A DNA stretch of 43,647 nucleotides. It comes from Synechococcales cyanobacterium GL140_1_metabat_312 (lineage in GTDB: Bacteria; Cyanobacteriota; Cyanobacteriia; Leptolyngbyales; Leptolyngbyaceae). The position numbers and the translations under genes were made by a program. The first letter of the stretch is position 1, and each line of letters opens with the position of its first letter. The stretch spans positions 1 through 43,647 of the forward strand of contig JANXWB010000057.1 of the NCBI GenBank assembly GCA_025351345.1, given 5' to 3'. Below are positions 3,145 through 30,509 of this stretch, one piece after another. A model generated the notes under the pieces. The model was given only the letters and a program-made list of their open reading frames with translations, had not been told where the DNA came from and ran no database searches.

Positions 3145-4215
3145 CTAGAGACGGCGAATTCGATCGATTTTGGGACTGAGAGAATCTGGAGAAATACCGC
3201 AGCGGTGGGCAACGAGAACTCCGATCGCTTCAAGGTATGAATTAACAGAGATCGATCGGATTCCCAGATCTACAGGCGAGACTTGCATCCGACTTGTATT
3301 TTCTCGAACCGTAATGATTTGAGTCGAGGTTTGGCTTAAGTGCAAGAGCGCGCTTCCCCCACAGGCACTTTCGGGTAAGACCAAGGCGTTGACTTGACTG
3401 CGGTGAATGTCTGTAGATCGAGGACGATCGAATGAATTAGCCGCCATAGAATCGACCAGGGCAAACTGCGGAGCACGGCTGAGACCGACTAAGACGCACG
3501 GTAAAAAGGTATGACCAAGTTCTTCAGCGGCGGATTTTGGCGAGATGGAAATATCGAGTTCTAGCGGCGAGAGAGCTGGGGCATGGGCACAGGGGATCTT
3601 AAAATGGCGGACAATCAAATGACTAATGACGGCTTCAGCTCCAGCCAACGGGTCAACGCCCTGGCCATGTCGGTAGTCGTGGAGCGCATTTTCCGGCAGA
3701 TCTTCTGGAAATCTAGCAATGACCGCGATCGCCGTGGCTCCAGCTTGATTAATCAATTTATCAGCAGCGCGCAGCAGACTGTCGGGGTTGCCGATCGTGC
3801 CCCAAGTTGCCCCCGACTCAGCGCTTTGAATCCCGACATTCAGCGGCTCATCTGTCAAAACATAATCGGTGAGAGTCAGGCCCAGAGTGGCACGGGCGGC
3901 ATCGGCGGCTTGGAGATGGCGGGCAATCAGGTCGGGTTCGGTACCGCTGTCTATTAATAGTCCAATTTTGTTTTGGTGGACGGGGCGTAGGTTCCAGTGG
4001 CCCGCGGCAAATTGGTCCAAGGCATAGCCTTCGGTATACAGAGTATTCGGCAAGTTCGAATAGAGTTGTGCACCATTCATAACATTTGGGTGCGTAATCA
4101 GCCGATCGCACACCTGAGAAATAGCTTTAGCGGTAGGTAATGCGTCTCCGGCATACCCGCCGATGGCTGCCCCAATTCCTGTGGGGACGATGAGCATGAC
4201 AGTGTAAGGAAGCAT
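3145..4215 (-). CDS. DUF3326 family protein
   Basis: This 356-aa protein matches the uncharacterised DUF3326 family, found in cyanobacteria and plants. It starts MLPYTVMLIVPTGIGAAIGG, has a Gly/Ala-rich loop (GIGAAIGGYAGDALP), a segment NKIGLLIDSGTEPD and a late Cys/Gly motif ESACGGSALL. No signal peptide is evident; the hydrophobic start is probably a buried beta strand of a Rossmann-like fold rather than a membrane helix. Family function is unknown. It is the first gene of a minus-strand pair with the CPBP protease. A 13-bp tandem duplication (4223-4246) lies directly in front of its start codon. Confidence 0.8.
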   Translation of the reverse strand: MLPYTVMLIVPTGIGAAIGGYAGDALPTAKAISQVCDRLITHPNVMNGAQLYSNLPNTLYTEGYALDQFAAGHWNLRPVHQNKIGLLIDSGTEPDLIARHLQAADAARATLGLTLTDYVLTDEPLNVGIQSAESGATWGTIGNPDSLLRAADKLINQAGATAIAVIARFPEDLPENALHDYRHGQGVDPLAGAEAVISHLIVRHFKIPCAHAPALSPLELDISISPKSAAEELGHTFLPCVLVGLSRAPQFALVDSMAANSFDRPRSTDIHRSQVNALVLPESACGGSALLHLSQTSTQIITVRENTSRMQVSPVDLGIRSISVNSYLEAIGVLVAHRCGISPDSLSPKIDRIRRL

Positions 4216-4793: not shown

Positions 4794-5069
4794 ATGAATC
4801 AGTTATCACTATTAGGCTTAGCTCAAACGGCTCTCACTAATCCTATTGAAGCTTGGTATTGGACGCGTTCTTTAGTGATGATCGGATCCTGTTTGTTGAT
4901 TTTGTTTATTGCAAGTCGCACCATCAATCAGCCCCATGTCGGACCAAAAATGCTGCTAGGTCCGTTTGGAGCGCTCTTTAAAAATATCAGCTTGGCGGGC
5001 TTTTTAGCTTCAATGAGCTTGGGCCATATAGTAGGTGCGTTTTTAATCATAAAGTTTTTTAATTCTTAA
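4794..5069 (+). CDS. psaK: Photosystem I subunit PsaK-like protein
   Basis: A 91-aa protein with two membrane helices (about residues 26-43 and 66-86) joined by a basic, Gly/Pro-rich loop (RTINQPHVGPKMLLGP), the topology of PsaK/PsaG. The second helix carries LAGFLASMSLGHIVGA, matching the PsaK signature LPELLATTSFGHILG in spacing and the conserved S-x-GHI-G. PsaK sits at the periphery of photosystem I in the thylakoid membrane and takes part in light-harvesting and antenna contacts; cyanobacteria often have two versions, one induced under strong light. The start is well supported by AGGAGA at 4781-4786, 7 nt before the ATG. The large repeat protein follows after 49 bp on the same strand and may be co-transcribed. 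The sequence is divergent, so it could be an alternative PsaK isoform. Confidence 0.78.
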   Translation: MNQLSLLGLAQTALTNPIEAWYWTRSLVMIGSCLLILFIASRTINQPHVGPKMLLGPFGALFKNISLAGFLASMSLGHIVGAFLIIKFFNS

Positions 5070-5118: not shown

Positions 5119-8100
5119 ATGCAAATATCACACAAAATTCGTAGCTTCATTCTCACCATGGGTTTAGCCTCTGTGCTAGTCACAACAGGCGCATTTCTTT
5201 TAGATCCTTCTGGTAGTAGTGCCGCCGCGCTACCTGGTAATTCGATCGTTGGACAATTACCGATCGATAACTCCGTACTCATATTTCCCGGAGATAAATT
5301 TGCATTAGCAGTGGTGGCTGGGGTGATTATGGCCTTTGCCTTCCAACTGCTCTTCGCCAATTTAGCGATCGCGGTGATTGCCGGACCTGATAGTTCCACG
5401 GACAGAAACGAATCTGACGAAAGTTTGGGGGACACCATTCGCGGAATTGAGACGAAGGTCGGGGTAGGACTACTGGTCAGCGTTAGCATTGCCCTATTCC
5501 TCGCTTCATTCTTGGCGGTCAAGCTAAGTTTGGTGGGAAGTTCTATGATTGGGGCTATTATCGGCGTCATTATTTGGGCTATTTTCTTTACCTTGTTGAC
5601 TTGGTTTGGATCGACGGCTGTGGGTTCGTTGATGGGATCAATTATCAGCACCGCCACCACAGGAATTCAGAGTTTGTTGGGCACGGGTAGCGCTGTTCTT
5701 GGTGCAAACTTGGCGAAGAGCCAAATCGTTTCGACAGCTGAAGAAATTACTGCCGCCGTGCGCCGTGAGTTAACCTCTGGCTTTGACCCGGATAGCATTC
5801 GGACGACCTTGCAACGTTCCTTGGACCAAGTACAGCTGCCTCAGTTGAATGTAGATCAATTGGGAGGACAGTTTGAGCGGTTGCTTAAGGATGTGGACCT
5901 TAGCGCTATTGGCAATAGTGATCTACTTAAAAGCGTCAATCGTGATACGTTGGCCAAATTAGTCAGCAGTCGCACCGATCTTTCAAAGCAAGATGTTAAC
6001 CGCATCACAGATCAGCTAGAAGCTGCTTGGAAAAAATTGGTTAATTCTAAAGATGCGATCGATCCACAAGAATTAATTCAGCAATTGAAGTCAGCCGCAC
6101 CACAAGATCTGAAATCAGGTAAGCTTAGCAATCAACTTAGTGAACTCGTTAAATCGGCATCTAAACAAGAGAGTTCCGACGGCAATATAACCACCAGAGC
6201 CTTGCAACTTGGCGCGACTGCGATACTAAGTCAAGTTTTGAAAAATGTTGATCTCTCCGATGTGGATGTGGAGAAGATTGGATCACAACTACGGACGTTG
6301 AGCAGTAGTGTATTGAATCCCCAAGGTAATGCCAATGCTTCTTCGGAGCGTAGTCTTGCTAAGAACGACGGAAAAGCTAACGGGAAGTCTAACTTCAAAG
6401 CGTTTAGTATCATCCAGGCTGATTTAGAAGATTATTTGTTGTTTTCACCGTCCTGGAGGTTCAACCAAGAGAATTCTAAGGAAGAATTTCGCGATGTAAT
6501 TTACGATACTGCTGCTGAAGCAAGTCTAATCCAGCAAGAATTGACGGCGATCGATCGGGACTACTTTGTCCAAGTACTAAGCTTACGAGATGACTTAACG
6601 CCCCCCAGGATTCAAGATTTAGCAGGTAAGTTTGATGGGATTCGGGTTGATGTGCTGACGACAGCTCAGACCGCAGTTACCCAAAAACGATCGCAAGATC
6701 TTCGCCAGAACGTTGAAAATTATTTGCGGTCTACCAATAAAGCCGACCTGAATCCAGATGCGATCGCCCGTGACTTTGGACCGTTGCTAACCGATTCGGA
6801 AGTGGGGTTTGATATCTTGGGTCAGCGTCTGGGGCAGTTCGATCGCCCGACTTTAGAGCAGTTGCTGAGTCAGCGTCAAGACTTGAATAATGAGGAATCG
6901 AGTCAAATTATTAATCACCTCGAAAATACGCGCGATCGGATCCTATCGCAAGGCCAAGAATCACACAATCAGCTTCAAGGACAAGCGCAAGAACTTCGTC
7001 AGAAAGTATCAGACTATCTCCGCGACACTCACAAAGAAGAACTTAATCCCGAAGGCATTCAACGAGATTTTAAACTGCTATTCGATGACCGGGAAGCCGG
7101 AGCAAATGCGTTACGAAATCGGCTTTCACAGTTCGATCGCGATACACTGGTCCAGCTTTTGAGCCAACGCCAAGATCTGAGCGAAGAACAGGTGAATCAA
7201 GTACTCGATCAAGTGGAGTCGGTGCGCGATACCGTTGTTCAAGCCCCACGAGAGCTGGCTGGCAAGGCTAAAGAGCAGTATGAACAGACGACTCAAGCGC
7301 TGGCGGATTATCTCCGAAAAACCAAGCTTGAAGAACTCAACCCTGAAGGAATTCAACGGGATTTGGAGACGTTGTTCAATGATCCGAAAGCGGGTACTCA
7401 GGCATTGCAGGAGCGGTTGTCCCATGTCGATCGTGAAACCCTCGTCAAGCTCTTAAGTCAGCGCGACGATCTGACCGAAGAACAAGTCAATCGAACGATC
7501 GACCAAGTGCAATCAGCCCTGCGTAGTGTGATCAAAGCCCCAAGACGATTGGCGAATCGGGTTCAGAAAAAGGCCATTGACTTTGAATCGAATCTGGAAA
7601 GTTATCTGCAACAGACCCAAAAAGAAGAGTTAAATCCAGAAGGAATTAAGCGCGATCTACAACTGTTGCTCCAGGATCCGAAAGCGGGACTCTCTAGCCT
7701 AGGCGATCGGGCAGCTCAATTTGATCGCAGTACTTTCGTAGCGCTGTTGGCCCAACGGAAAGACATGACGGAGGAAGAAGCCAATCATATTGCCGATCAG
7801 GTGGAGTCCAATTTCAAGGCTGTTAAAGATCAGATTCAGCAAGTGCAGCAGGCGGTTCAATCCACCATTGATGGAGCCTTTGACAGTGTGCGAACCTACT
7901 TAAATAATTTAGAACGCCCTGAGCTTAACTATGACGGAATAAAACAGGACTTTGGCCAACTGTTTAATGATCCACAGCTCGGATTAGAAGCTCTAAACGA
8001 TCGCCTAGCCCACTTCGATCGAGATACCTTAGTAGCACTATTGAGTTCGCGAGACGATATCTCCGAAGCCGATGCAAACCGAATTATTGGCCAGGTTGAA

Positions 8101-8313
8101 TCAGCTCGCAATGGGGTGATTCATCAGGTCGAACGAGTTCAGCAAGAAACGCAAAGACGCCTTGAAGCTATCAAATATGCAACCCAAAAGCAAGTACGCG
8201 AAACCCGGAAAGTTGCTGCTAGTGCTGCTTGGTGGGTATTCAGTTCAGCATTAGTTTCCCTAGGGGCATCCGCTCTAGCAGGCTCTATCGCTGTGACTCG
8301 CTATGTAATCTAA
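5119..8313 (+). CDS. Large membrane protein with five exact-length 98-residue repeats
   Basis: I do not recognise a named family. The 1064-aa protein starts with a hydrophobic segment (residues 9-29, possible signal anchor), then three further membrane helices (about 60-88, 115-135, 142-164). A long, charged, helix-rich part follows. Its second half has five head-to-tail repeats beginning at residues 532, 630, 728, 826 and 924, each exactly 98 residues. Each unit begins with YL-x-x-T, then ELNPEGI-x-RD, then DP-x-AG, then FDRDTLVQLLSQR-x-DL and ends in a Q-VES-like helix. Two more divergent relatives of the second half of the unit lie near residues 255-310 and 435-510. A final membrane helix (about 1033-1058, AAWWVFSSALVSLGASALAG) closes the protein. 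The likely picture is a membrane-tethered helical rod or scaffold. It follows psaK by 49 bp. Function unknown; a role at the thylakoid or cell envelope is only inference from the neighbour. Confidence 0.85.
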   Translation: MQISHKIRSFILTMGLASVLVTTGAFLLDPSGSSAAALPGNSIVGQLPIDNSVLIFPGDKFALAVVAGVIMAFAFQLLFANLAIAVIAGPDSSTDRNESDESLGDTIRGIETKVGVGLLVSVSIALFLASFLAVKLSLVGSSMIGAIIGVIIWAIFFTLLTWFGSTAVGSLMGSIISTATTGIQSLLGTGSAVLGANLAKSQIVSTAEEITAAVRRELTSGFDPDSIRTTLQRSLDQVQLPQLNVDQLGGQFERLLKDVDLSAIGNSDLLKSVNRDTLAKLVSSRTDLSKQDVNRITDQLEAAWKKLVNSKDAIDPQELIQQLKSAAPQDLKSGKLSNQLSELVKSASKQESSDGNITTRALQLGATAILSQVLKNVDLSDVDVEKIGSQLRTLSSSVLNPQGNANASSERSLAKNDGKANGKSNFKAFSIIQADLEDYLLFSPSWRFNQENSKEEFRDVIYDTAAEASLIQQELTAIDRDYFVQVLSLRDDLTPPRIQDLAGKFDGIRVDVLTTAQTAVTQKRSQDLRQNVENYLRSTNKADLNPDAIARDFGPLLTDSEVGFDILGQRLGQFDRPTLEQLLSQRQDLNNEESSQIINHLENTRDRILSQGQESHNQLQGQAQELRQKVSDYLRDTHKEELNPEGIQRDFKLLFDDREAGANALRNRLSQFDRDTLVQLLSQRQDLSEEQVNQVLDQVESVRDTVVQAPRELAGKAKEQYEQTTQALADYLRKTKLEELNPEGIQRDLETLFNDPKAGTQALQERLSHVDRETLVKLLSQRDDLTEEQVNRTIDQVQSALRSVIKAPRRLANRVQKKAIDFESNLESYLQQTQKEELNPEGIKRDLQLLLQDPKAGLSSLGDRAAQFDRSTFVALLAQRKDMTEEEANHIADQVESNFKAVKDQIQQVQQAVQSTIDGAFDSVRTYLNNLERPELNYDGIKQDFGQLFNDPQLGLEALNDRLAHFDRDTLVALLSSRDDISEADANRIIGQVESARNGVIHQVERVQQETQRRLEAIKYATQKQVRETRKVAASAAWWVFSSALVSLGASALAGSIAVTRYVI

Positions 8314-28997: not shown

Positions 28998-30509
28998 ATG
29001 ACTGATACTGCTCTGCCCGCTGTGATTCAGGCGATGCTTAAGCCAGATTTTTATTCCCATGCTGTGACTGAACCCATTGAGTTGATTCAAACGCATATCT
29101 CCTACGTGTTTCTAACTGGAGACTATGTTTACAAACTTAAAAAGCCTGTTAACTACGGATTTCTAGACTTCTCAACCCTTGAAAAACGCCAACATTTTGC
29201 CGAAGAAGAAGTACGGCTCAATCAGCGCGGGGCGGGGAAACTATACCTCGGGGTGGAATCCATAACTCAAGTTGGCGATCGGTTCCAAATCGGGGGAGAT
29301 GGCGTGGTAGTTGAGCCTGCGGTAAAAATGCAGCAGTTTCCACAAACAGCACTACTAAGTGAAATGTTTGATAAGGGTGAACTCACCGACGAATTGATCG
29401 TCACCTTGGCTAAAGAACTGGCCACATTCCACGCGAAGTCCGAAAGCAACGATCATATTCGTAGTTTTGGAACTGTTGAAGCAATTCGTCAAGCGTATGA
29501 TGAGAACTATGCTCAAAGTATTGGGTATATCGATCGTGCTCAAACCCAAATTCAGTGGGACAAAACTAAAGCCTATAGCGATCGTTTTTTTGTTGAGAAA
29601 GCGGCTGTATTTGAATCTCGCGTGAGTGCCGACAAAATTCGGGAATGCCATGGAGATATCCATTTACGAAACATTGCCTATTGGCAGGGCGAAATGTTGT
29701 TGTTTGATTGTATTGAATTCAACGAGCCATTTCGGTTTGTGGATACGATGTATGATTTAGCATTTGTATGTATGGATTTGGATGCGCGGGGCCGATCGGA
29801 CTTTGCAAATCTATTGCTAAATACCTATTTAGAACAAACTGGAGATTATGAAGGCGTGCAGGTTTTGCCGCTGTACCTCAGCCGTCAAGCCTATGTCCGG
29901 GCAAAAGTTACGTCATTTCTATTAGACGATTCAACCATTCCAGCTGATGTCAAAGAATCGTCGGCTAAAACAGCGGCGGACTACTATCGTTTGGCCTATA
30001 ACTATACTGCTGTCAAGAAGGGTCGATTGATTCTAATGTCGGGGCTTTCGGGTTCAGGCAAAAGCACAACTGCCAAAGCAATCGCTCGTCGCCAGAATGC
30101 AATTCATTTACGATCGGATGCAGTGCGTAAACATCTAGCAAATATTCCAATTGAGCAAACGGGAACGGCTGATATTTATAGTCCTGAAATGACTCAGAGA
30201 ACCTACGATCGGTTGCTTAAGCTTGGCGTATTACTCGCATCTCAAGGTCATACGGTGATATTGGATGCTAAATACGATCGGATTGCATTACGAACTCCGG
30301 TATTAGCGACGGGAATTCCAGTAACTATTGTTCATTGTGATGCGCCGATAGAGGTCTTGATGGCACGGGTTGCAGCACGGACGGGAGATATTGCGGACGC
30401 AGATATTGGGGTTTTGCAACAGCAGAGTTTTGAAGAGTTTAGTGAGGCGGAAAAAGGCTTTGTAAAAGTAGTGGATACGACGGGTGTGGTGGAAGTGAGT
30501 TCAATTTAA
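28998..30509 (+). CDS. Fused aminoglycoside-phosphotransferase-like / P-loop kinase protein
   Basis: A 503-aa two-domain protein of a widespread bacterial family with unknown substrate. Residues about 1-330 form a kinase-like (APH) domain: YVFLTGDYVYKLKKPVNYGF with a likely ATP-binding Lys, and the catalytic loop CHGDIHLRNI followed by LFDCIEFNEP. Residues about 340-500 form a P-loop kinase domain with GLSGSGKST (349-357) and a lid-like region RSDAVRKHLANI; DAKYDRIALR resembles the adenylylsulfate or gluconate-kinase type. The start has GAGGA about 8 nt before the ATG. The protein may phosphorylate a small metabolite or nucleotide; no substrate can be named. Confidence 0.88.
   Translation: MTDTALPAVIQAMLKPDFYSHAVTEPIELIQTHISYVFLTGDYVYKLKKPVNYGFLDFSTLEKRQHFAEEEVRLNQRGAGKLYLGVESITQVGDRFQIGGDGVVVEPAVKMQQFPQTALLSEMFDKGELTDELIVTLAKELATFHAKSESNDHIRSFGTVEAIRQAYDENYAQSIGYIDRAQTQIQWDKTKAYSDRFFVEKAAVFESRVSADKIRECHGDIHLRNIAYWQGEMLLFDCIEFNEPFRFVDTMYDLAFVCMDLDARGRSDFANLLLNTYLEQTGDYEGVQVLPLYLSRQAYVRAKVTSFLLDDSTIPADVKESSAKTAADYYRLAYNYTAVKKGRLILMSGLSGSGKSTTAKAIARRQNAIHLRSDAVRKHLANIPIEQTGTADIYSPEMTQRTYDRLLKLGVLLASQGHTVILDAKYDRIALRTPVLATGIPVTIVHCDAPIEVLMARVAARTGDIADADIGVLQQQSFEEFSEAEKGFVKVVDTTGVVEVSSI

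Follow-up and report, generated by a model that had tools for sequence, protein, structure and literature searches.

What is the role of a protein whose tandem repeats hold one exact length while their sequences diverge? This question is raised by the gene for a 1064-residue protein in contig JANXWB010000057.1 (assembly GCA_025351345.1) of Synechococcales cyanobacterium GL140_1_metabat_312, a stretch of 43,647 nucleotides that was analysed whole and is referred to here as the window. An original prediction had described five repeats of exactly 98 residues, held in a fixed structural register between membrane helices, in a protein of no named family encoded next to psaK. The gene encodes what is apparently a membrane protein of cyanobacteria that is undescribed so far; no paper describing it was recognised in the open-access literature without preprints, where mentions by locus tag only would escape. 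Our reading is that of a helical rod of defined length, anchored in the membrane and tied to stress and membrane architecture, and we put its probability at roughly 0.45.

Eight units between two membrane ends

The exact period survives formal alignment. In a self-comparison of the protein, the best 80-residue BLOSUM62 sums peak at 258, 217, 196 and 164 for offsets of 98, 196, 294 and 392 residues; 200 block shuffles, which serve as the control for the 98-residue period, reach no more than 60 at any of 680 offsets. The five units, which begin at residues 532, 630, 728, 826 and 924, share 33–54% identity with one another. Further comparisons cover 77 proteins, namely the window protein and 76 relatives; the relatives are the best 80 of 479, with four that are cut short or split (L031, L036, L037 and L038) excluded from the length statistics. 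A unit profile made from the units of these 77 proteins recovers the older-looking upstream copies of the original prediction, and finds three of them where two had been proposed: residues 232–317 (77.8 bits), 323–409 (13.2 bits, weak) and 436–526 (67.6 bits), the last starting 96 residues ahead of unit 1. This brings the total to eight units, followed by a conserved C-terminal segment. With the same profile, 62 of the 77 proteins have eight units, 11 have seven and four have nine; an earlier profile, built only from the five units of this protein, finds seven units in 64 proteins and eight in 13.

Hydropathy supports membrane segments at both termini, in the N-terminal domain and near residues 1036–1060 (Table 1), and profiles give a three-part order of N domain (50–189), eight units and C helix (1012–1061). 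A segment as hydrophobic as residues 7–28 precedes the membrane domain in only 6 of the 77 proteins and is thus not general. The N-terminal membrane domain itself has no Pfam match. Three stand-alone membrane proteins of 211–237 residues, likewise with no significant Pfam match, weakly resemble it; they are encoded at L224 834–1547 (+), L226 830–1465 (-) and L228 417–1118 (-), with E-values of 7e-9, 5e-7 and 9e-6, respectively. The small membrane protein of L228 shares a cluster with a hemerythrin gene.

Unit length and sequence conservation

Across units 1–5 of the 77 proteins, 356 of 385 units are exactly 98 residues long (75/77 for unit 1, 55/77 for unit 2, 72/77 for unit 3 and 77/77 for units 4 and 5). 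Nearly all the exceptions in unit 2 (21 of 22) are four residues shorter, and in the three sequences inspected the deletion sits inside a predicted long helix. Unit C measures 96 residues in 76 proteins, and residues 166–231 and 1022–1058 each have a single length in all 77. Variation in length is found in the unit B region (22 lengths), the membrane domain (11) and unit A (7). In sequence, positions 86–98 belong to the least conserved part of the unit, yet they keep the same fixed length. Certain Asp, Arg, Pro and Gly positions are strongly kept. The fixed register proposed originally is supported by both this length conservation and the predicted helices described below, which run from unit to unit.

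Among 26 proteins, units at the same position are 65–76% identical between species and units at different positions 38–50% identical, a range close to that of units within one protein (38–51%). This pattern indicates that the units diverged before the species split, without later homogenisation; judged from these identities, the order of the units is old and fixed.

Predicted structure

An AlphaFold2 (AF2) model of units 1–3, built with 77 sequences, is all helical, with a mean predicted local distance difference test (pLDDT) score of 78.7. Each modelled unit consists of helices of 11–12, 8–9 and 9 residues followed by one long helix. The first two long helices (model residues 66–111 and 164–209) are 46 residues each and both cross unit borders; the third is broken and of low confidence. 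In the full-length model, ten-residue blocks within residues 431–640 reach pLDDT values of 69–89. The helices are amphipathic, and the shape of a rod is our inference.

The absence of a named family is upheld, in that no described domain covers the unit. Foldseek searches with the full-length and three-unit models return nothing at E <= 0.001, a sequence search of solved structures gives a best match of only E 0.06, and similarities to DUF2267, TerB and DUF6781 are weak. The best match in VIA-align is the designed helical repeat DHR4 (PDB 5cwb; Z 7.3 over 93 residues, root-mean-square deviation 3.6), with which only general helical-repeat packing is held in common; by the guidance for this program, a Z below ~13 for helical repeats possibly reflects a mere common arrangement. 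EzrA and HU, two proteins considered below, do not appear among the 50 VIA-align matches listed, which is evidence neither for nor against them.

Relatives and their unit numbers

The gene is present in 33 of 58 genomes near that of the window (its own included), and many genomes carry two copies. Leptolyngbya sp. PCC 6406 is among the strains with an orthologue. A query with the N-terminal domain finds matches in 59 of 386 genomes drawn evenly from the phylum at E <= 1e-5. Matches to this domain above 80 bits lie in open frames of 1000–1131 residues in 89 of 96 cases, the remaining seven frames being 279, 371, 375, 390, 922, 955 and 1231 residues long. In relatives that share both ends, the number of detected units ranges from one to ten, in the order N domain, n units, C helix: one in L183, L184 and L187 (partial), two in L182, four in L181, five or six in L186, six in L188 (one partial), seven in L189 and ten in L191. 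The low counts are minima, because diverged copies can fall below detection. The ten-unit protein of L191 (3434–7127, +) is the 1231-residue frame, with two units above the standard eight. The 390-residue frame of L187 (3718–4888, +), from genome G090, which belongs to another class of the same phylum, combines both membrane ends with one partial unit and is possibly an early or reduced form. No relative is matched by tblastn among plasmids and phages, and none is confirmed on viral contigs.

Gene neighbourhood

Gene order was compared at 120 loci; 76 of them are flanked by 6 kb on either side, and 74 of these are distinct (L039/L143 and L100/L144 are identical). Within 6 kb, CAAD (CURT1-type) genes are found at 27 of the 74 distinct loci, YflT at 24 and BON at 21, corresponding to 28, 25 and 22 of 76 before duplicate removal. 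Neighbours were detected with seed-built profiles, and their Pfam identity was verified on examples from L070, L039, L035 and L037; since the seeds come from Nostocales, distant neighbours may be missed. Other arrangements include a co-oriented CAAD frame in genome G005 that begins 70 bp downstream, and a YflT frame 36 bp downstream at L035, and a further one occurs in G007. In G033, the only CAAD match of the genome lies 1.9 kb from a distant (33%-identical) paralogue. The nine genomes checked contain 1–6 CAAD matches each, so closeness to the repeat-protein gene would not be expected by chance, with the proviso that related strains are not independent. Downstream of the gene in G182 lie YflT-DUF2382, DUF2382, an unnamed gene, catalase and a hemerythrin gene.

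In an excerpt of PMC4893482, CAAD/CURT1 proteins appear as proteins of the thylakoid membrane that shape thylakoids; an excerpt of PMC12462475 likewise describes the shaping. YflT is a heat-induced stress domain by its Pfam name, and BON is a putative membrane-binding domain according to a reference title in PMC7660261; DUF2382 joins these two among the stress-type neighbours. CAAD (PF14159) is a frequent gene neighbour, but the 1064-residue protein itself gives no CAAD match up to E 10, and the link is one of genomic context. A thylakoid or envelope role had originally been considered possible through psaK; that route is not supported, as detailed below, and a thylakoid link is suggested instead by the CAAD/CURT1-type neighbours.

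Two ties to described genes were considered and set aside. Identity of the stress cluster with the Anabaena all0457–all0459 operon is not borne out, as that operon is made up of low-temperature/Dps genes in the passages concerned of PMC4915528 and PMC4390845; a tie to the Nostoc punctiforme BON gene Npun_F3787 could not be established from the relevant part of PMC7660261 and is not claimed. The Nostocales cluster also has a small fourth gene (L070 4025–4432, -), a similar gene being found within 6 kb at 26 of 80 loci. Residues 72–99 of its product match the first half of the profile of Psb34, a photosystem II assembly protein, at E 5e-10 and below the cut-off, which is a lead only.

A proposed membrane-anchored rod and its alternatives

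Two membrane ends, repeats of fixed length and a variable unit number would suit a structural rod better than an enzyme or transporter. In the arrangement we propose, the N-terminal membrane domain and the C-terminal membrane helix would anchor an acidic, all-helical domain of ~800 residues and eight units, in each of which three short helices would pack with long helices that run on into the next unit. As the long helices are predicted to continue between units, unit length may set the geometry of the rod and unit number its reach. Acting with curvature proteins of the CAAD/CURT1 type, such a rod would scaffold or space membranes under stress, and these membranes may be thylakoids. The shaping role of CAAD, the stress domain YflT and the putatively membrane-binding BON domain lead us to this reading: the protein probably acts as a membrane scaffold or spacer, and its neighbours suggest a thylakoid location and a role in stress.

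A stricter version of this proposal, which we regard as rather unlikely, is a ruler with its anchors in two facing membranes (thylakoid and thylakoid, or thylakoid and plasma membrane) and the repeat rod fixing the gap between them. We know of no fixed-length membrane spacer of this kind in cyanobacteria; AncM, which we take to be the 'anchor of convergence membranes', is a separate named factor.

Several observations weigh against the scaffold reading. Firstly, AF2 performs poorly on the full-length protein (mean pLDDT 54.2, predicted template modelling score (pTM) 0.32), and the three-unit model has a pTM of 0.51. Only 49 of the 77 proteins have a five-unit block of exactly 490 residues, and the loop at residues 89–112 of the N-terminal membrane domain is net negative in all 77 (mean -3.9). 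Secondly, the distribution is patchy, with the gene present in 58 of the 386 genomes (own included) and 41 of 143 genera. Of three congeners, two (99% and 95% complete) give no match; the gene is therefore dispensable within the genus. Finally, the CAAD/YflT/BON cluster, which is divergent from the repeat-protein gene, is found mainly in Nostocales, judged from record titles, and carries a clade bias; the window's own locus lacks this neighbourhood, and in one set of 40 loci CAAD is nearby at 3.

The alternative that survives best, though unlikely, is an arch with both ends in one membrane, whose curved repeats would recruit soluble partners instead of spacing membranes. Its model is EzrA, a spectrin-like division regulator of Firmicutes that appears to be the nearest bacterial analogue in layout, with no claim of family membership. 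An excerpt of PMC4243239 describes EzrA as having five helical repeats of ~100 residues, long continuous junction helices and an N-terminal membrane helix, and as a semicircle 120 A in diameter. The cyanobacterial protein resembles it in repeat size, membrane anchoring and helices continuous across junctions (46 residues, as predicted here). An interaction of CurT with FtsZ, likely physical, is reported in part of PMC12462475, and CAAD genes neighbour the repeat-protein gene, which also favours an arch. However, EzrA has a single N-terminal membrane helix and five triple-helical bundles, whereas the protein studied here has a multi-helix N-terminal domain, a C-terminal helix and eight units, for each of which the model suggests three short helices and a single long one of 46 residues instead of three long antiparallel helices. 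Unlike in EzrA, motifs are kept between units. The searches revealed no sequence match or convincing fold match to EzrA, and the spectrin matches in Foldseek reach only E 0.5–0.7.

More doubtful is a rod in the envelope or the lumen, with the repeats facing the periplasm or thylakoid lumen and bracing or spacing the envelope. The evidence here concerns topology. By the charge rule, the acidic loop 89–112 should lie outside, and three membrane helices would put the repeats outside too; the repeat region is itself acidic (mean net charge -38), and the frequent BON neighbour resembles a secreted lipoprotein by eye. The stretch at residues 1010–1035, in contrast, is net basic in all 77 proteins, which is unusual for the outer side and favours the cytoplasmic side for the C-terminal end of the repeats. 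The two charge clues clash if there are only three N-terminal helices: cytoplasmic repeats require a fourth membrane helix, or else the repeats face outward. A fourth helix at the moderately hydrophobic candidate segment 166–190 could reconcile the clues, placing the repeats in the cytoplasm. The neighbouring CAAD/CURT1-type proteins, being thylakoid membrane proteins in the excerpt of PMC4893482, also speak against an envelope rod. We infer that the repeats more likely lie on the cytoplasmic face.

It is improbable that the protein is a lipid-binding coat, in which amphipathic helices would lie on the membrane surface in the manner of apolipoproteins and protect it during drying or cold. The Apolipoprotein profile (PF01442) matches 35 of 43 members of an alignment made of 42 of the 76 relatives and the window protein (A2) at E <= 0.01 (best 1.1e-8), the helices are indeed amphipathic, and YflT, BON and DUF2382 are stress-type neighbours. 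Matches to this profile are, however, common for long amphipathic helices, and in the 1064-residue protein itself the match is at E 1.2, with 9.2 bits against a cut-off of 90. A folded unit is indicated instead by the fixed length and by the strong conservation at Asp, Arg, Pro and Gly positions.

We consider it very improbable that the protein is an HU-related DNA tether holding the nucleoid to the membrane. The only Pfam match above cut-off is Bac_DNA_binding (HU, PF00216; 23.3 bits against a gathering score of 22.4), and this profile matches 42 of the 43 members of A2 at E <= 0.01 (best 1.6e-9). The match covers window positions 5938–6060 (residues 274–314) and profile positions 2–42 of 90, a helical hairpin only; these ~40 residues of the 1064 presumably correspond to the first two helices of HU. 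It does not extend over the whole domain with its beta-arm, and the AF2 models contain no strand, which argues against a DNA-binding arm. Unlike HU, the protein is membrane anchored and built of tandem units, and its repeats are acidic. The match is real but should not be taken as DNA binding; as the score passes the Pfam cut-off, automatic annotation may mislabel these proteins as DNA-binding.

The psaK gene next to the repeat-protein gene is genuine (PF01241, E 2e-8, 4794–5069) and lies on the same strand, 49 bp upstream. No terminator-like site is found, so co-transcription is possible in this strain. Across 80 orthologue loci, many of which are short-flanked, psaK is detected at none, and in G005 and G007, which have strong psaK matches, it lies on contigs other than that of the repeat-protein gene. 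The reach of the psaK query is limited: it detects psaK in 5 of 7 genomes, two of them with strong and three with weak matches. A role in photosystem I biogenesis or regulation is thus the most improbable of the alternatives, given these results and the fact that the repeat-protein gene is not found in 328 of the 386 genomes, and psaK is disfavoured as a functional partner and, contrary to the original prediction, as a pointer to function.

Feature map of the gene

The coordinates of the gene and its parts are collected in Table 1. Elsewhere in the window, positions 28998–30509 (+) encode a 503-residue protein with an AAA_33 domain, a weak zeta-toxin match and a sub-threshold phosphotransferase (APH) match, and positions 3145–4215 (-) encode a DUF3326 protein (E 1e-163) of unknown function.

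Table 1. Parts of the repeat-protein gene in window coordinates, with residue numbers of the protein in brackets
Feature	Position	Strand	Basis
Whole gene, helical-repeat membrane protein, 1064 aa	5119..8313	+	Open reading frame translation; relatives found
N-terminal hydrophobic segment (7–28), signal peptide or additional membrane helix	5137..5202	+	Hydropathy; not family-wide
Conserved N-terminal membrane domain (56–165), ~3 membrane helices (56–88, 114–137, 140–162)	5284..5613	+	Hydropathy mean over 43 sequences; alignment of 29 family members
Linker (166–231)	5614..5811	+	66 residues in 77/77 proteins; 166–190 moderately hydrophobic, possible fourth membrane helix
Repeat unit A (232–329), diverged	5812..6105	+	Unit profile; residues 274–314 match HU N-terminal half
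Repeat unit B (323–409), weakest copy	6085..6345	+	Unit profile, 13.2 bits; region with 22 lengths in 77 proteins
Repeat unit C (436–531), 96 residues	6424..6711	+	Unit profile
Repeat unit 1 (532–629), 98 residues	6712..7005	+	Unit profile, AF2
Repeat unit 2 (630–727), 98 residues	7006..7299	+	Unit profile, AF2
Repeat unit 3 (728–825), 98 residues	7300..7593	+	Unit profile, AF2
Repeat unit 4 (826–923), 98 residues	7594..7887	+	Unit profile
Repeat unit 5 (924–1021), 98 residues	7888..8181	+	Unit profile
Basic stretch ahead of last membrane helix (1010–1035)	8146..8223	+	Net positive in 77/77 proteins
C-terminal membrane helix (1036–1060)	8224..8298	+	Hydropathy; Trp-Trp pair invariant in both alignments

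Implications for cyanobacterial membranes

To our knowledge, little is understood of what determines the distance between cyanobacterial membranes, or of what keeps these membranes in place when cells face drying, salt and cold. With its two membrane ends and modules that are fixed in length but variable in number, the family is a natural candidate. If the ruler described above were true, the gap would differ between members with 1–10 units, and selection would have maintained eight units as the standard spacing. Few helical-repeat rods anchored in the membrane are known from bacteria, and the family may add one to them.

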